From a virus, in the IMG/VR virus record IMGVR_UViG_3300031552_000001, positions 62,001 to 126,000 of that record: 64,000 nt of DNA, one strand, 5' to 3'. The notes under the pieces were generated by a model. That model had not been told where the DNA came from. It saw nothing but the letters and a program-made list of their open reading frames with translations, and did not search any database. This document shows, piece after piece, positions 7,124-62,281 of the stretch. The translations under genes and the position numbers were made by a program. How positions within the stretch are numbered: position 1 is the stretch's first letter; each line of letters opens with the position of its first letter.

Positions 7124-10100
7124 CTAATTCGTGGGAAGATTAGGGGATGACGTAATGTCAAGATCGTCCATGGTATCCTCATAGTCTTCCTCGCTCACCA
7201 ACCCATGCTCCCTCTGTATCTCTTTAGTGGGAAGAATAACGTCCGCTCGAGGTCTTATGTAAAAAGAGGCTAGAAAACCAAATACCATCGCGTGGAATGA
7301 GTCGTCGGTCCTCCCAGCAGCGCACTTGTAAATATTCATCCTAAGCCTATCATTGTACTCCGAAAATATGTTCAACATATCTATAGCAAAAGGCTCTTCG
7401 AATTCTTCCCACCGAGGAAACCAAAATACATTAGCCCTTTTTATTGCGTTAAAAACGTCTGACATCACCTCAGTGCGGTGGCATAAATGTCTCGGCACCC
7501 CCAGCTGGGCATCAAACTTTACCTTCTTCTTAACATTACCGACCCATTGGTATTTCTTCACCTTATCAGCTCCGAAATATCTAACAAGCTCGTCATTTGG
7601 CCAAAAACCCCCTCCGTAGTCTACTCCAATTTTTTGAACGTTAAATTCTCTAACTAGGTGTCGTATCTTCTTTATTTGCACTGCGGGCTCTGATTCTACA
7701 CCTTCAAATCTATGCCAATAGAACCAAGTGAATCTCTCAGGAGCAAACGGCAAATATCCTCCTAGGCAAACTACCGTGTAACTATTCTCGCCCGACCCCC
7801 AGTCAATTCCCATGAATATCGGATACTGACTGCTGTACTGCTTCACGTCTTTATAAAACTGCATGGACAACTCGTCCCAGCAGTTTCTTCTAACATCTCT
7901 TCGAGTAAGAGGTCTGGTGCCGGAATCATAACTTCTTCCAAGAACCTCATTGTAGAACTTAGCTCTGCTGTACACTCTCTGCTTGTTGAGTATGTCGTTC
8001 CAATCCATCCACGGAACCATAAGCTGAGGTATTCTAAATCCCTCAAATGGATTCTCAGTATTAGGATTGGGGTTAATTGCGCTCCAGCAGGCGTCGGGAT
8101 CGTCAGGTCGTATAAGCTTTCTACACCGGCTACAGATAAGACCGTCCGGGCCTATATTTTCCTCATCCAAAACATTCCAATGCCAGGAGCTTCTATTTTT
8201 TGGGGTTCCGTGTCTTTTACAAGGTACCACCCATTCGTTCTGCGTAGAGAACCTAGACCAGTAATACTCTATGGAGTTGTCTAAGGATTTAGGAGTTCCG
8301 GCGTAAATAAAATATTTGAATGATGAGTGAGACGCGCACTCCTCAATAACCGGCACGTTGTCGAGCAGAATGTCTTGGAATTCATCGATAACAACCAAGT
8401 CTGAAGGAATTCCACGAGTGTTATGCACTACTAGACCGTCTGCTACAAAGCAGCCAGATTCTTCCACGGTTAAATCATATACGTCATCCACTCCTTCTTC
8501 AAACACGCCCTTGACTCGGACCCACGACCGGGACGGGTCGCATAATCCTTTCAGATAAGAATCGTTCAGTTTATAAGCTATAGATAACAGTACTCTACGA
8601 CCAATACTGTCTTTGACGTTGCCTGGTCTAAGTTGAATTCTATATCTCGTCCAAGCAGAATGAGTGCTTAGGCCGTAATGCTCTTTTAAGTACCTCCTTA
8701 ACAACGCGTAAGATACAGGAATTCTGTCTTTGTCGTCTTTGCTTCTAGTAGTCTTAACCTCACATTTTCTAAAATGCCCAATAAGGTGTAAGAGCCTCTC
8801 TGTGGGGTACTTAGTCAAAGACAACGTGTAGCTTACTTTAGCCTTTTTTGTAGACGGCCTCTTGCGATAAATAGCGCTTCGAATGCCAAAATTCCATAGC
8901 ATCCTAGCCAAGCCCTCTATCAATTCCTTGGATGCACTAGAGTATCCAGCTCTAGCCCCTCCGTCGTCAGGGCTACACCAGCCATCCCCCCAAAATAATG
9001 CCCGTAAAAAAGCGATCTTCTCCGACTTAGGGGCAGACCATATGGCACGCGGTATCTTCTTATACTCCGCTTTTTTACCGAATTCCCCTAAGCTCCATAA
9101 AAGAGCCTTAGCTCCGTTAATGCCCTGTCCTCGACGGTCGGAGTACAGCCCTACATTCCAGCACGTTTTAAACCCCGGTCTAGAGTCCTCTACTCGAGAA
9201 CCTACAGACAGCCCCACCCTACGCGCTTTTACTTCAAACTCCCTCAAGTATTTCTTGTCAGAATTTGTAAACCTAACAGAGGACGGCTTGTTACACTCGC
9301 CTTCTGCTAACATGGCCCCTATGAGCCAAGCCATGTCCTCACCAACACTCAAAAAGGCGCACTCCTTGCCTGAATGGTGCGGGGCAGCTACAAAATCGCT
9401 TTTGAGGAGGTCTTCTGCATTTACCCAGCCTCGTTGCGTAAGAATAGGGTGGTCAAAGCTGCACATTAGTGGAACAGGATAGTCAGTCTCTACTCTGACT
9501 ATCCTTTTTCTTGCGCTTAAATGGGGGTTTGTAGCTGTAGCAATATAAGGCTTACCTTCTGTTGTCGAGGTAACGACCCGAACAGCCTTTCCTGCTTCTG
9601 CTAACTCCTTAATAGAGGCCAATGACCCGTCTGCTAAGTGTATTAGGCTGCTGCCATGCAAGCATCGGTCCGCGTTCAAAAATGCAAATCGAAGAGTTAT
9701 TTGTGAGTGGTTAATGAACCTCTTCTCAAACACATTTTTGAGGAGTCGATTATTGGTAGTTTGCTTCAAGAAAGGGGAAAGCTCTATAGGCTCAGCAATT
9801 CGGTCCCTACTGAACACTTTAGTTTGTTGGTTAGAGGGACTGACATAGAGCGCTCGAAAATAAGGGTTCATAAGCAAGTATGAAAGAGACACATTTCCCA
9901 GTAGCGTGCTGTTGTGCGCTACCAGCCCCTCAACGACAAAATTATGAGTATCACCTACCTCAAAGTCTACGCACTTGCAAATTCCTACTGGGGTGATCTC
10001 GACAACCCTGTCCCAATAAAGATCGGTGTCGGTGTGCGCAGCTAAAACATCCACCAACCCTTGATCGCATAATGAATCAGACCTAAAAAAACGAACATAC

Positions 10101-11479
10101 TCCAATAACTTGTTTCGAGTGGGCGGGTACTTTAATGTGCGGCGAAGCCCATCTTTATGCAAACTCTTGCGCCTATTTTCATGCCAGTTATCTTCCCCTC
10201 TAGAAGCTAAAATCTGTGCAATTAGTTTATTGATTTCTTTCGGGTACGTATCGCGATTATTACTAGAAGAGCCCGTAGGGGGTTTTACCTTCTCAGATTT
10301 TCCTAACGCCCCTATATCTTTCAGTAGGCGTGTGGCGCCCTTCTGAGTCTCTACGCGCAGTATATAAGCGAATTTTCTTTCCCCTCTTTTCTTATAAATA
10401 GACGGCCAGTTTTCTCGTATTTTGGAAGGTATACCGAACTTCCAAAGCAGGGACTGCACCTGTCTAACAAGAAGCTTGGACATAGAGCAGTATTCTAAGC
10501 TATACTTAGACCGGCTGTTTTTCTTAATGTGGCCGTCAGTAGACCAAAGACGATTTAAAAACAGTGATGTTTGCCGCATACTAAGGTCAAACACCCAAGG
10601 CGGGATAAATTTAGTGTAAGAGCTACAATCCAGAAGCCCGTCCTCTCTCATCCATCTATAAATCTCCCCAACATGAATTTTAACTATCTTGGAACTTCGA
10701 GTTGCGTAGTCATAAATTTTACTAGAACCCCCTACATTTTTAACGTCTGAAATAAATTCTGAAAGCCTCTCTCCCGGAGTTTGCGTAAAGCACACTCCGT
10801 CTGTAAGTCCGCCGTCTCCAATCAAATAGGCAGTTAGCCTTACCCTACTTTCGGGCATTGTAACTGAACCCGTAAAGTCCCCCCCTTGCCGCACAGCAGC
10901 TATTCTGTCTCCTACTCTTAATTGAGATCCCTCCGTCCAGCCGTCCCAGGTTCTCATAGGGTGGGTTAATGCTATCTCTAAGGTACGCCCTTGCCGAGTT
11001 TTTACTCTTACACAAGGCTTTGATACCCGTTTAGACACCCAACTAACGGTACCTGAAGACAGGTGTGCCCCGTCTAGCGACATTGTTACAAGAGAGTCTC
11101 CGATCTTCACGTCCCCTGCGGCAATCAACTCCCCGTTTGCTCGGCTACACAAGCTGGAGATAGGTACGCACTTCTCGACTTGCCTTCCAGCCATCAATAT
11201 TTTGCGCTTAGAAGACGAGTTGTATATAGCTCTAAGATACTCCCTGCCTTTAAAACTGAAGTTAACTAACCTACCCCCTGAAGGGATCTTAAACGCCCCC
11301 TCCACGAAAGCAGAGGGGACGGCCGTCAACGCCCCTTCTCTCGTAAAAGAACCTATATCTATCTCCTCGTTTGCTCTTTTCTCCTTAGCCGATAAAGGAT
11401 CGTACCTATAGTCTTCCTCAGTATCGTAGAGGGAACTCGGACGGACATCAGGATTATCGGATAAGGCTACACGCAGCAT
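7124..11479 (-). CDS. terL: Terminase large subunit (DNA-packaging ATPase/nuclease) precursor with two inteins
   Basis: The precursor is 1,451 residues; removing two inteins (420 and 415 residues) leaves 616, the usual TerL length. The protein pumps DNA into proheads and cuts concatemers. The Walker A motif GRQVEK/STLLGN is split by intein 1 right after the Lys. Intein 2 lies just before TRGIPSDLVVIDEFQD, which carries Walker B (VVIDE). The C-terminal RNase H-like nuclease shows three acidic motifs: GIDWGSG, GVDYGGG and TDDSFHAMVFGF. I chose the ATG at 11479, which has TTGGAGG eight bases upstream; an ATG at 11548 would run into the divergent gene. The small subunit is not recognised here. 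Confidence 0.93.
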   Translation of the reverse strand: MLRVALSDNPDVRPSSLYDTEEDYRYDPLSAKEKRANEEIDIGSFTREGALTAVPSAFVEGAFKIPSGGRLVNFSFKGREYLRAIYNSSSKRKILMAGRQVEKCVPISSLCSRANGELIAAGDVKIGDSLVTMSLDGAHLSSGTVSWVSKRVSKPCVRVKTRQGRTLEIALTHPMRTWDGWTEGSQLRVGDRIAAVRQGGDFTGSVTMPESRVRLTAYLIGDGGLTDGVCFTQTPGERLSEFISDVKNVGGSSKIYDYATRSSKIVKIHVGEIYRWMREDGLLDCSSYTKFIPPWVFDLSMRQTSLFLNRLWSTDGHIKKNSRSKYSLEYCSMSKLLVRQVQSLLWKFGIPSKIRENWPSIYKKRGERKFAYILRVETQKGATRLLKDIGALGKSEKVKPPTGSSSNNRDTYPKEINKLIAQILASRGEDNWHENRRKSLHKDGLRRTLKYPPTRNKLLEYVRFFRSDSLCDQGLVDVLAAHTDTDLYWDRVVEITPVGICKCVDFEVGDTHNFVVEGLVAHNSTLLGNVSLSYLLMNPYFRALYVSPSNQQTKVFSRDRIAEPIELSPFLKQTTNNRLLKNVFEKRFINHSQITLRFAFLNADRCLHGSSLIHLADGSLASIKELAEAGKAVRVVTSTTEGKPYIATATNPHLSARKRIVRVETDYPVPLMCSFDHPILTQRGWVNAEDLLKSDFVAAPHHSGKECAFLSVGEDMAWLIGAMLAEGECNKPSSVRFTNSDKKYLREFEVKARRVGLSVGSRVEDSRPGFKTCWNVGLYSDRRGQGINGAKALLWSLGEFGKKAEYKKIPRAIWSAPKSEKIAFLRALFWGDGWCSPDDGGARAGYSSASKELIEGLARMLWNFGIRSAIYRKRPSTKKAKVSYTLSLTKYPTERLLHLIGHFRKCEVKTTRSKDDKDRIPVSYALLRRYLKEHYGLSTHSAWTRYRIQLRPGNVKDSIGRRVLLSIAYKLNDSYLKGLCDPSRSWVRVKGVFEEGVDDVYDLTVEESGCFVADGLVVHNTRGIPSDLVVIDEFQDILLDNVPVIEECASHSSFKYFIYAGTPKSLDNSIEYYWSRFSTQNEWVVPCKRHGTPKNRSSWHWNVLDEENIGPDGLICSRCRKLIRPDDPDACWSAINPNPNTENPFEGFRIPQLMVPWMDWNDILNKQRVYSRAKFYNEVLGRSYDSGTRPLTRRDVRRNCWDELSMQFYKDVKQYSSQYPIFMGIDWGSGENSYTVVCLGGYLPFAPERFTWFYWHRFEGVESEPAVQIKKIRHLVREFNVQKIGVDYGGGFWPNDELVRYFGADKVKKYQWVGNVKKKVKFDAQLGVPRHLCHRTEVMSDVFNAIKRANVFWFPRWEEFEEPFAIDMLNIFSEYNDRLRMNIYKCAAGRTDDSFHAMVFGFLASFYIRPRADVILPTKEIQREHGLVSEEDYEDTMDDLDITSSPNLPTN
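8420..9664 (-). other. Intein 2 of TerL, upstream of Walker B, with LAGLIDADG endonuclease
   Basis: A 415-residue insertion starting CLHGSSLIHLADGS and ending GLVVHN before extein Thr. Block B is CSFDHPILT; the endonuclease motifs are AWLIGAMLAEGEC and AFLRALFWGDGWC. Exteins rejoin as FLNADR/TRGIPSDLVVIDE, immediately before Walker B. Intein 1 uses Ser+1 and this one Thr+1, and the two share little sequence, which suggests separate acquisitions rather than duplication. Confidence 0.92.
9911..11170 (-). other. Intein 1 of TerL, in Walker A, with LAGLIDADG endonuclease
   Basis: A 420-residue in-frame insertion beginning with Cys (CVPISSLCSR) and ending VAHN before extein Ser. Splicing block B is seen as LEIALTHPMRT and block F as HNFVVEGLVAHN. 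A LAGLIDADG-type homing endonuclease lies in the middle, with paired motifs LTAYLIGDGGL and LFLNRLWSTDGHI. The insertion splits the P-loop between the catalytic Lys and the following Ser, so the terminase cannot bind ATP until splicing is complete. Boundaries come from the Cys1 and Asn/Ser+1 rule and from continuity of the flanking terminase sequence. Confidence 0.92.
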
Positions 11480-11527
11480 TAAATAGTCCTCCAAGAAAAA
11501 AGAAGACCTCTCTGGTATAAGAGGGCC
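11480..11527. promoter_or_regulatory. Divergent intergenic region between terL and the RNase HII island
   Basis: Only 48 bases separate the terminase ATG (minus) from the plus-strand ATG at 11528. The plus side holds GGTATAAG (11514-11521) seven bases before the ATG. If this is a -10-like element, the mRNA would be nearly leaderless. A related GGTATAAG precedes the replication cluster (34742-34749). No good -35 is seen. The promoter call is speculative; the divergent arrangement itself is certain. Confidence 0.35.
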
Positions 11528-11893
11528 ATGACAACCTCCAAGAAACACCTAGCTAAAACCAGACTGCAATGGGTAGAGCATGCTCGACTAGGCATTCTCA
11601 GTGCTGTAGGGGAAGATGTCGTAAAACCCCAGTTTAGAGTATTCTCTACTGTAGATCCTCTTCGATTCATATTGAGCATTAACCTTACACTACCACTAGC
11701 AAAGAACACCAGGAAACCTCTGAGAGACTATATACGCGCATGGGCAGAAGAATTCGGCTGTGAAGTGCCTGTTATAGACATTCAAAACTCTAGAGTTCAA
11801 GCAGAGGTACTAACTAAAGAAAGAGTATGGAGTAGAGATGCAAAAGGTAAATTCACTAAGGGGGCAAGAAGGTTTGAACGCAGGCCTCGATGA
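11528..11893 (+). CDS. Small basic hypothetical protein
   Basis: A 121-residue protein rich in Arg and Lys (MTTSKKHLAKTRLQWVEHAR ... RRFERRPR). It is the first gene of a three-gene plus-strand island between two blocks of leftward genes. Its 3' end overlaps the RNase HII gene in another frame by 56 bases. The SD is weak (AGAGG very close to the ATG). I do not recognise a domain; the basic tail could bind nucleic acid. Confidence 0.6.
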   Translation: MTTSKKHLAKTRLQWVEHARLGILSAVGEDVVKPQFRVFSTVDPLRFILSINLTLPLAKNTRKPLRDYIRAWAEEFGCEVPVIDIQNSRVQAEVLTKERVWSRDAKGKFTKGARRFERRPR

Positions 11894-35685: not shown

Positions 35686-38049
35686 GTGACCTCTTACCGA
35701 TACTTAGTTAAGGACCCAGACAAGGCGTATATATCAAACAATCTGTGGCTCCCCAAAAAATCAATAAACCAGTCAGTAGTAAAAGCTGCCCTTACCTTCT
35801 CTCTCAATGATGAAGAAGTGGTAGTAGACGAGCTTACCGGGGAGGCCATAGGCACAAAAACAAAAACCTTACGATTATGGGACGAGACAGAGCGTCACAT
35901 TATCACCCCCAAAGAATTTATTTCTCCTAGCAACTACCCCAACTTCCCGTGTGAATTTGAACAAATACCTCCTCCAGATTTCGAACAGGTACGAATAGAT
36001 GATCGTATAGAGCTAAGAAATGAAGAGCAACAAAGAGCGTACGAGGCCCTGTTACAAGACGGAAACGGCACACTGCACGTAAGTTGCGGCAAAGGGAAAA
36101 CGGTAATCGCGCTAAAAGTTGCCGCCACCCTTAAAGTGCCCACTATTGTGATAGTAAACAGCACGGCCTTACTTGAGCAGTGGAAAGAGGAAATAACAAA
36201 ACACTTGGGAGTACAAAGCATAGGGGTTCTACAAGGGCAACTACAGGACTGGAAAGGGCGCCCTATCGTGTTGTCTATGGTTCACACTCTTTCAAATAGA
36301 AGAAAGATGTGGTCTTCGGACTTCAAGCGTTACTTCGGGTTAGCGATATACGATGAGTGCTTTACTTCTGACACTTTAATTGACGACACTCCCATACAAA
36401 AAATTAGGGTAGGTGATACTGTTAGCAGTTACTCTGAAGCAGATGAAAGCCTATGCCGAAAAAAAGTGCTGCGTGTATTCAAGAAAAAACCCTTCAAACT
36501 CATAAGAATACAAGCCGAAGGCAAAAACGTAATTTGCACCCCCAATCACCCTTTCTTGACTGAAAAAGGGTGGGCTAATGCGGAGAACTTGACATGCGGG
36601 TCTGTGGTGCTATGCGCCATAAAGCATCGAAGCTTTATAGGAAAGGAAGGAAGGCGTGACCCCTCCAAAAGTCATAGTCTCTGTTTGCAAAGAGTGCGGA
36701 ACTCAAACAGTAAAAACGGGAAAAGCTGGGTTAGAGCAAGTGAGAAGGGGCGCAGTGTACTGCTCCCGACAATGCGCTCAACGTCACCTACATCGGGAGA
36801 GATCAAAGAGGATGTCAGAAACAAATCGAAAATACGCCTCAGAGAGAATGAAAAAGAACAACCCGATGAAAAGAAAAGAAGTGCGCGAGAAAATGAAATC
36901 TACACTAAGGGCGATGGGGTGGAAGCCCCCTGTTCAAGGAGGGAACGGAAGAACTCCCCCGGCGGCTCAACAGCTTTTAGCTTGCGCCCTGGGCTGGCCC
37001 ATGGAAGTAGCTATTGGGATTCAAAACGCGAGGGCAAAGCACAGCGCGAATGTATACAAACTCGATATCGGGAACAGGGCGTTGAAGCTGGGAATAGAAG
37101 TAGACGGGTATTCCCATTGCTCCCTTACGAGAAAAAAGCAAGACAAGAAGAAAGAGAAAATCTTAGCTGGGTTAGGGTGGACAGTATTGAGATTCTCGAA
37201 CCGGGAAGTGACGGAACATTTGGCGGATTGTGTCCAGACGGTTTTGTCTACAATCTCGAAGTTGAAGATACGCACACCTACTTAGCCAATGGTTTTGTAG
37301 TTCATAATTGCCACCACATGTCAGCTCCTGTTTTTGTACTAAGTGCTGACATGTTTTACGGAAAAAGAATTTCCCTGACTGCTACTGCTTCCAGAACAGA
37401 TGGACTAGAGACCGTTTACCAGTATCATCTGGGCAGAGTGATTCACAAAAATTTGTCGCAAGACCTTATTCCTCATACAGTTTTTCATGTGCTTCACTGG
37501 AAAATGCCTCCTGAGCACAAAAAGCTGGTCATAGATCGGAATAAAGAAGTAAGTACCCCCCGAGTTAGGACTTACCTTGGAAAGCTAGAGTGGAGAAATA
37601 ACCTAATCTACGAATACCTGGCCCAAGATCTAAAAAACGGAAGAAGTATTTTGGTGCTGAGCCACAGCGTAGACCATGTGGAAGTATTGCATAACTACCT
37701 GAGTGCGGCCGGGGCAGGTATGATTGTAGGAAAAACCCCTCAAGAAAGCCGAATGGCTATTTTGAGAAATGGTAATCCCGTATTTGGTACTTTTCAGTTA
37801 GCTAGAGAGGGATTAAATAAGCCCTCTCTAGATACCCTGTATGTGGTCACCCCTTTCAATAACTCCAACGACCTGCAACAGGCTTGGGGGCGAATTCAAC
37901 GAAGACATGAGGGTAAAAAGGAGCCTCTAATCAGGGTTTTTGAAGACCGGGCGTTTCAATGCTGTTTTAGGTCTTGCCGAGGACTACGAAACGTTCTTAA
38001 GAAGTTCGGCTATCCGTACACGAAAGAGGAGTGGGTAAAGTATGAGTGA
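35686..38049 (+). CDS. SF2 helicase (UvsW/XPB-like) precursor with an intein in the DECH box
   Basis: A 787-residue precursor; 470 residues after splicing. It is predicted to unwind or anneal branched DNA or R-loops during replication and recombination. Motifs: VSCGKGKTVIAL (Walker A, residues about 132-143), AIYDE/CHHMS (motif II, DECH, split by the intein), SLTATASR (motif III), VLSHSVDHVEVL (IV), and QAWGRIQRRHEG (VI). The start is GTG with GGAG six bases upstream, directly after the HTH gene. It overlaps the next gene by eight bases. Confidence 0.9.
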   Translation: MTSYRYLVKDPDKAYISNNLWLPKKSINQSVVKAALTFSLNDEEVVVDELTGEAIGTKTKTLRLWDETERHIITPKEFISPSNYPNFPCEFEQIPPPDFEQVRIDDRIELRNEEQQRAYEALLQDGNGTLHVSCGKGKTVIALKVAATLKVPTIVIVNSTALLEQWKEEITKHLGVQSIGVLQGQLQDWKGRPIVLSMVHTLSNRRKMWSSDFKRYFGLAIYDECFTSDTLIDDTPIQKIRVGDTVSSYSEADESLCRKKVLRVFKKKPFKLIRIQAEGKNVICTPNHPFLTEKGWANAENLTCGSVVLCAIKHRSFIGKEGRRDPSKSHSLCLQRVRNSNSKNGKSWVRASEKGRSVLLPTMRSTSPTSGEIKEDVRNKSKIRLRENEKEQPDEKKRSARENEIYTKGDGVEAPCSRRERKNSPGGSTAFSLRPGLAHGSSYWDSKREGKAQRECIQTRYREQGVEAGNRSRRVFPLLPYEKKARQEERENLSWVRVDSIEILEPGSDGTFGGLCPDGFVYNLEVEDTHTYLANGFVVHNCHHMSAPVFVLSADMFYGKRISLTATASRTDGLETVYQYHLGRVIHKNLSQDLIPHTVFHVLHWKMPPEHKKLVIDRNKEVSTPRVRTYLGKLEWRNNLIYEYLAQDLKNGRSILVLSHSVDHVEVLHNYLSAAGAGMIVGKTPQESRMAILRNGNPVFGTFQLAREGLNKPSLDTLYVVTPFNNSNDLQQAWGRIQRRHEGKKEPLIRVFEDRAFQCCFRSCRGLRNVLKKFGYPYTKEEWVKYE
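36358..37308 (+). other. Intein in helicase motif II, hosting an out-of-frame endonuclease gene
   Basis: A 317-residue insertion starting CFTSDTLIDDTPIQ and ending GFVVHN before extein Cys. Block B is CTPNHPFLT; block F is VYNLEVEDTHTYLANGF. Between these, residues about 100-270 of the insert are low-complexity, Arg/Ser/Glu-rich and unlike any endonuclease in this frame. The same bases read in the next frame encode a homing endonuclease (36656-37285). The intein frame stays open through all of it. Confidence 0.92.
36656..37285 (+). CDS. Homing endonuclease (Vsr/DUF559-like, EDxHD type) nested out of frame in the intein
   Basis: A 209-residue protein from a GTG preceded by a strong purine-rich SD (GGAAGGAAGG). 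Residues about 10-45 have CKECG and YCSRQC (zinc finger). Residues about 67-85 (NNPMKRKEVREKMKST) resemble a NUMOD3 DNA-binding motif. The C-terminal nuclease shows LDIGNRALKLGIEVDGYSH, then KKQDKKKEKILAGLGWTVLR, the E..D-G-x-x-H plus D..K/R pattern of Vsr/EDxHD nucleases. It would cut an intein-free helicase allele and drive homing. Frame is +1 relative to the helicase. Its C-terminus overlaps the intein's own splicing block. Confidence 0.85.
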   Translation: MTPPKVIVSVCKECGTQTVKTGKAGLEQVRRGAVYCSRQCAQRHLHRERSKRMSETNRKYASERMKKNNPMKRKEVREKMKSTLRAMGWKPPVQGGNGRTPPAAQQLLACALGWPMEVAIGIQNARAKHSANVYKLDIGNRALKLGIEVDGYSHCSLTRKKQDKKKEKILAGLGWTVLRFSNREVTEHLADCVQTVLSTISKLKIRTPT

Positions 38050-61747: not shown

Positions 61748-62281
61748 TCAAAACACCAATTCCCACTCAATTTCCAACGTGAATCCGTTGAATTTCAATA
61801 AGGGATCGAATTTTTTATAGAATGCCGGTGTGTTAGTAGGAGAAGATACAGAAAGCACTCCTCCAGGAGAAGAATCGAAATACAACCCCACCTCTGAAAT
61901 CTTAATAGCCAACACTCCGTACGGCGCCTGCACCTCAGAGGAGGTAAATTCCGCTTTTACTTTTACAGAAGTAGACGAGGGGAAAACATTCAATGAAGGA
62001 CTGAGCTCTTTTAAATATACCCCAGAAGAAATTTGAAGAGGGGAAGCCAGGGCTACAACGTTTTTATCTTCTGGTTGAGAGCCGTTTCCAACACCTACGT
62101 ATCTAGCTCTACGCTGAGTATAAGGAACGTCTGGGTCCGAAATAGTATTCCAAGCCACCAAGCTGGTTAATAGGTCTGCTCCGTCTGTAGTCATAACATT
62201 ATGCCCAGAGCGAACGGAATCCGGAACCACTCTACCGGAGAGGTCTCTCATGAATATCTTAACGTTGTTTTTTACACTCAC
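61748..62281 (-). CDS. Tail/fibre-associated protein, paralogue B
   Basis: A 177-residue protein from GTG at 62281 with GGAG six bases upstream, coupled to the upstream stop (GTGA). It is the tandem paralogue of the 61141-61740 gene, sharing DVPYTQRRARYVGVGNGSQ and the C-terminal GFTLEIEWEL. It lacks the 20-residue loop near residue 150 of the other copy. Function as for its paralogue. Confidence 0.7.
   Translation of the reverse strand: MSVKNNVKIFMRDLSGRVVPDSVRSGHNVMTTDGADLLTSLVAWNTISDPDVPYTQRRARYVGVGNGSQPEDKNVVALASPLQISSGVYLKELSPSLNVFPSSTSVKVKAEFTSSEVQAPYGVLAIKISEVGLYFDSSPGGVLSVSSPTNTPAFYKKFDPLLKFNGFTLEIEWELVF

Follow-up and report, generated by a model that had tools for sequence, protein, structure and literature searches.

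A predicted homing-type endonuclease gene overlaps a viral helicase intein in the +1 reading frame

A helicase intein in the 64,000-nucleotide stretch analyzed here (positions 62,001 to 126,000 of the IMG/VR record IMGVR_UViG_3300031552_000001, hereafter the window, taken from a virus record of 192 kb) is very probably a composite mobile element, in which a splicing-competent intein and a homing-type endonuclease are encoded as separate genes on the same DNA, the endonuclease in the +1 frame. Comparison and models establish two conserved frames, selection on them, their folds, translation signals and alleles with and without the intein. An initial annotation, made from the letters of the window, had observed this arrangement; the observation is confirmed, and sequence, selection, fold and distribution support its interpretation. 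In textbook inteins the homing endonuclease is in frame, so the nuclease and the splicing domain are produced together. The features concerned are as follows, numbered from the first letter of the window.

35686 to 38049, + strand: superfamily 2 (SF2; ResIII/XPB-like) DNA helicase gene, interrupted by the intein (PF04851 E=7e-14, Helicase_C 4.5e-7, phrog_16 2.5e-39)
36358 to 37308, + strand: intein, 951 nt, 317 aa (PF14890, Intein_splicing, E=4.8e-15; TIGR01443, the NCBIfam C-terminal intein model, E=3.8e-8)
36358 to 36627, + strand: N-terminal part of the Hint splicing domain, intein residues 1-90, outside the nuclease open reading frame (ORF) (AlphaFold)
36628 to 37146, + strand: intein-frame filler, residues ~91-263, a disordered loop that is nuclease DNA read in the intein frame (predicted local distance difference test, pLDDT, ~45-50; stop-free in 79/79 nested homologues)
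36639 to 36655, + strand: Shine-Dalgarno (SD)-like purine tract (AGGAAAGGAAGGAAGGC) ahead of the GTG (sequence; SD enrichment in homologues)
36656 to 37285, + strand: endonuclease gene in the +1 frame, 209 aa, GTG start (DUF559 E=8.1e-11; model mean pLDDT 93.9; 85 homologous loci)
37156 to 37282, + strand: dual-coded segment of ~43 codons, C-terminal Hint strands (intein residues ~267-309) and nuclease strand and helices (residues 167-209) (both frames modelled)

The helicase ORF has no internal stop and is translated as a continuous 787 aa. Its intein starts with Cys1 at 36358, ends with Asn317 up to 37308 and is followed by Cys+1 at 37309, so that the exteins after splicing are 35686-36357 and 37309-38046. 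The sequence hallmarks of a Hint intein are all present, namely the N-terminal Cys, a block B of the TxxH type (CTPNHPFLT) and a C-terminal HN (VVHN) followed by Cys, and the insertion site lies immediately after the DE of the helicase DExH box (YDE^C...N^CHH). The intein boundaries given by the initial annotation, together with its normal splicing blocks, proved exact.

The nuclease ORF is in the +1 frame with respect to the helicase (970 mod 3 = 1), and no other ORF of 150 codons or more in the window is nested on the same strand within a long ORF. Its product is composed of a C4 zinc finger (C11, C14, C36, C40), a helical linker (TNRKYAS.RM..NNPM) and an EDxHD/Vsr-like DUF559 nuclease with the motif GWxVLRFxN and the catalytic residues E148, D150, H154 and D163, which are invariant or near-invariant among homologues; DUF559 is matched in 60 of 60 family members. 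AlphaFold models were built on family alignments for both frames. The top solved matches of the nuclease model in Foldseek were 3HRL and I-Bth0305I 3R3P (probability 1.00, E 0.004-0.011), with 1VSR lower, and the profile match of the nuclease to 3R3P had E=0.0085. The initial annotation had taken the 209-residue product for a Vsr/EDxHD-type nuclease and proposed a profile search, and both the DUF559 match and the fold match to I-Bth0305I bear this out. Judged by its predicted Vsr-like fold and EDxHD catalytic residues, the nuclease is a member of the EDxHD/Vsr-like group, and homing activity is predicted for it. When the nuclease was recoded in 300 trials with synonymous codons drawn according to the codon usage of the helicase, the intein frame acquired a mean of 11.2 stops and a minimum of 4, compared with 0 observed, which rules out a frame left open by chance.

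Relatives were collected in two ways: the nuclease was run with tblastn against phage records, and viruses and genomes were searched separately with a profile. The tblastn search matched 40 phage records at 42-45% identity, and the annotation beneath the match is one gene in 40 of 40, mostly a helicase, indicating that the nuclease was overlooked in the annotated records examined. The profile search matched 112 viral and 45 genome sequences, and the matches were reduced to 85 non-redundant loci. The nuclease is nested in an intein in 79 of the 85, in the same relative frame in 79/79, and the layout is kept in ~80 distinct phages and bacteria. The insertion site is always a Walker-B/DExH motif, in SF2 and SNF2-like helicases and in DnaX-like clamp-loader genes, and splice blocks (Cys1, block B, HN, Cys/Ser+1) occur in essentially every nested locus with a contig long enough to include the junction. 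The DnaX-like genes (L105 2379-4337 and L066 2253-4214) carry related overprinted inteins at the equivalent Walker-B site, and one of these two loci is on a Bacteroides metagenome-assembled genome contig. A search for related loci with the whole helicase yielded no confirmed relatives, and a plasmid search returned generic DUF559 proteins only.

In the intein-frame model, the two parts of the Hint domain (residues 1-90 and ~270-317) reach a pLDDT of ~97, with the disordered middle of ~170 residues between them. Across loci, a median of 46 nuclease codons fall within the last 54 intein residues, and the stop codon of the nuclease is inside the intein in nearly all loci. The dual-coded segment of the window has a pLDDT above 90 in both frames except for the last nuclease block, at 76. 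Positions 37165-37210, which the initial annotation had singled out as conserved-looking in both frames, are indeed folded in both, but they form only one part of an overlap folded in both frames that extends from ~37156 to 37282.

The suggestion that the nuclease has its own SD and GTG start fits the purine tract upstream of the GTG and the enrichment of SDs among homologues. In 78 loci the start codon was picked without SD information, as the nearest one upstream of the zinc finger. The predicted start is ATG in 65 of these, and an SD of at least 5 nt is found there in 31/78 against a background of 2.6%. In L003, L004, L005, L008, L025, L034, L039 and L048, the nuclease SD (GAGGT) is made of intein Asp/Glu-Val codons (DDEVL) right after block B. 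Independent initiation of the nuclease would be the simplest reading of these signals. Alternatively, programmed +1 frameshifting could produce an intein-nuclease fusion without internal initiation, as the +1 offset is identical in every locus, an SD-like tract can also stimulate frameshifting, and some predicted starts have a weak SD or none. However, in 51/78 loci the nuclease frame is closed by a stop no more than 20 codons ahead of the zinc finger, which leaves little room to shift and disfavours a frameshift fusion, SD and ATG are enriched at the predicted start, and the free-standing and fractured relatives described below have ordinary starts. We regard production by frameshifting as unlikely.

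Selection on the two frames was examined over the 79 nested loci, with the expected number of stops taken from synonymous recodings that kept the codon usage of each gene. The intein frame contains 0 stops over the nuclease compared with 918 expected, while the third frame contains 1278 compared with 932 expected; the third frame is full of stops, therefore the openness is specific to the intein frame. Every intein-frame stop must start at a T in the third position of a nuclease codon, and NNT to NNC is always synonymous. The intein frame thus stays open because its stops begin at the nuclease wobble T, which can always be removed by a T to C change. No dipeptide forces an intein-frame stop, while the other frame is closed wherever Met precedes Ile, Lys, Met, Asn or Thr (MI/MK/MM/MN/MT), dipeptides that force a stop there and are present in 77/79 nucleases. 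A wobble T before AA, AG or GA occurs 0 times in nested nucleases, whereas T/(T+C) in this context is 0.48 in exteins and 0.71 in the six non-nested loci.

The initial annotation had also proposed a substitution-rate analysis. Over 13 independent pairs, the substitution rates in the nuclease core at positions 1/2/3 are 0.107/0.074/0.257, so changes concentrate at nuclease third positions, and purifying selection is supported by the comparison. At the level of sequence, this third-position bias is the pattern of a coding sequence read in the nuclease frame. The rate at third positions drops to 0.10-0.13 over the final 42 nuclease codons, where the gene runs across the folded end of the splicing domain, compared with 0.405 in the extein. 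Taken with the layout kept across the family, this places one DNA stretch under selection in two frames at once. Homing endonucleases often decay once fixed, according to the homing-cycle model (PMC1654191), and the nuclease could accordingly be a non-functional passenger, an old insertion left open through recent common ancestry alone. This is very unlikely, since the nuclease frame is intact in 85/85 homologues at 32-75% identity with catalytic and zinc residues conserved, and substitutions are biased to third positions. A nuclease pseudogene is ruled out by the same 85 intact ORFs; the few stops counted within the matches are single ones at the extreme C-terminus of the nuclease.

Conversely, the intein frame could be a dead by-product of an inactive, interrupted helicase, with the nuclease alone under selection, as the predicted disorder of its middle might suggest. 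The 0 stops against 918 expected, the splice blocks in essentially all nested loci that reach the junction and the substitution pattern of the C-extein, which is typical of a gene, make this highly improbable. The remaining alternative, a frameshift or assembly error hiding a nuclease that is truly in frame, accords with the convention that intein endonucleases are in-frame domains (PMC3943268) and with the in-frame endonuclease of ORF 7124-11548 in the same window, but it has a negligible probability because the same offset recurs in 79 independent loci, including the isolated and completely sequenced phages phi673, CP-T1 and MR14, and because the nuclease overlaps the folded C-terminal part of Hint, where a single frame cannot encode both. 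The findings that the initial annotation said would overturn its reading were all looked for and none turned up: the nuclease matches a profile, its frame is uninterrupted in 85/85 loci and under purifying selection, and the offset replicated in 79 loci excludes a sequencing frameshift.

Alleles with and without the intein were found in three phage pairs, each with precise in-frame insertion at the conserved DExH box. Between the Corynebacterium phages phi673 and phi674, the flanks are 98% identical on both sides, 909 nt in phi673 replace 3 nt (a Val codon) in phi674, and the invaded phi673 allele gains Cys+1. CP-T1 and 138 form a second pair with flanks of 97/96% identity, and 1.088 and 1.285 show the same pattern. 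As judged from these sequence pairs, the whole intein element moves. The Vibrio phage K458 (L138 3001-6380) has a mini-intein lacking the endonuclease at the same helicase site, and a GIY-YIG-like (T5orf172) gene lies immediately downstream of its helicase.

For the composite element, we propose that the helicase mRNA would be translated straight across and the Hint domain would excise the intein, in which the ~170 residues over the nuclease would be a tolerated unstructured loop. Internal initiation at the SD and GTG (ATG in most relatives) would yield a free nuclease terminating within intein block F. This nuclease would cleave intein-free helicase alleles of co-resident phages, and repair would copy the intein with its hidden gene. 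If openness of the intein frame were lost, a split-intein fractured gene would result. Several points weigh against the composite-element reading. Translation of the nuclease, DNA cleavage and protein splicing are steps that we infer, and likewise the allele pairs show mobility of the whole intein, with the nuclease as its putative driver. By a strict test, an SD of at least 4 nt is found in only 39/78 loci and is undetectable at about half of the predicted starts. Moreover, the zero-stop set was fixed after dropping six stop-bearing loci (three fractured, three free-standing), although the stop counts of nested and removed loci are sharply bimodal, 0 vs 9-29.

Canonical bifunctional inteins, with an in-frame LAGLIDADG or HNH endonuclease, share with the window intein the combination of Hint and an endonuclease at the usual place between blocks B and F; here, by contrast, the endonuclease is a separate predicted protein in another frame, +1 in the window and in 79/79 nested loci. 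Fractured genes, reportedly described by Dassa et al. in 2009, are said to consist of a split intein whose two halves flank a free-standing gene for an EDxHD homing endonuclease. They too have an EDxHD/Vsr-like nuclease as its own ORF between the intein N and C halves, and L059, L075 and L081 share this exact layout. In fractured genes the host/intein frame is interrupted and the halves are separate ORFs, whereas the window intein is one continuous ORF across the nuclease gene, with nothing split and nucleotides coding twice. I-Bth0305I, reported by Taylor et al. (2011), is said to be the EDxHD homing endonuclease that a mobile intron carries. The window nuclease resembles it in predicted catalytic fold and profile match, but their sequence identity is low and I-Bth0305I is intron-encoded rather than intein-encoded.

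Among published arrangements, the one that comes nearest is the out-of-frame HNH endonuclease in actinophage methylases known as the ShiLan domain and Pacc40 insertion (PMC11855218). It shares with the window an endonuclease out of frame in a host gene that stays open, a GTG start and a sporadic distribution. The published cases are HNH nucleases in a methylase host, where neither a splicing element nor a recognisable SD was found, while ours is a bona fide intein with a nuclease of another family (DUF559/EDxHD), SDs in many members and an overlap with the folded splicing domain. The initial annotation's claim of a new arrangement needs qualifying, since out-of-frame HNH insertions without an intein had already been published. 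The same paper cites Gosselin et al. 2025 (actinobacteriophage inteins of non-canonical architecture) and Gorbalenya 1998 (non-canonical inteins) for overlapping reading frames, and, going by that citation alone, these two may describe overlapping-frame endonucleases in inteins. Our literature search found no description of this EDxHD/helicase intein group, with the Gosselin 2025 preprint and Gorbalenya 1998 outside its reach, and priority for the bare idea of an overprinted intein endonuclease is uncertain.

The six non-nested loci comprise the three fractured genes with separate intein halves and three free-standing nuclease genes (L061, L065 and L093), of which L065 and L093 adjoin a helicase. 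In L093 (2896-4964), the nuclease is directly upstream of an uninterrupted helicase (DESHH), possibly a collaborative-homing or ancestral state. In L065 (2989-5084), the helicase downstream of the nuclease loses its frame precisely at the DE site, which would fit imprecise intein loss or an escape mutation. In an unrooted tree that included two fractured sequences, these two pair together (Shimodaira-Hasegawa-like approximate likelihood ratio test, 99) and the deep forks are weak; because of the missing root and the weak forks, the tree does not establish whether nested loci gave rise to fractured ones or the reverse.

Tentatively, and with slightly less than even credence, we suggest that overprinted inteins may be a stable composite selfish class, with splicing domain and mobility nuclease in two frames that the wobble-T rule keeps compatible and with mobility freed from splicing. 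Free-standing, nested and fractured states would then coexist in one family, as a likely route from mini-intein to split-intein fractured gene. The arrangement makes the mobility enzyme an independent gene overprinted on the intein, contrary to the textbook in-frame layout. Long dual coding on a single strand in prokaryotes is also made available in ~80 natural replicates, in which a simple codon rule explains the frame used. As mini-inteins, free-standing endonucleases and split-intein fractured genes are linked in one family, the origin of natural split inteins becomes directly testable.

Elsewhere in the window, DnaB-like helicase, primase, DNA polymerase A and RecA-like genes lie near the helicase ORF and form a replication module around it. 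The terminase-large-subunit ORF at 7124-11548 on the - strand (1474 aa, phrog_675 E=2.6e-46) contains a conventional intein sequence with an in-frame LAGLIDADG endonuclease and two Intein_splicing stretches; the canonical arrangement is therefore present in the same genome too.
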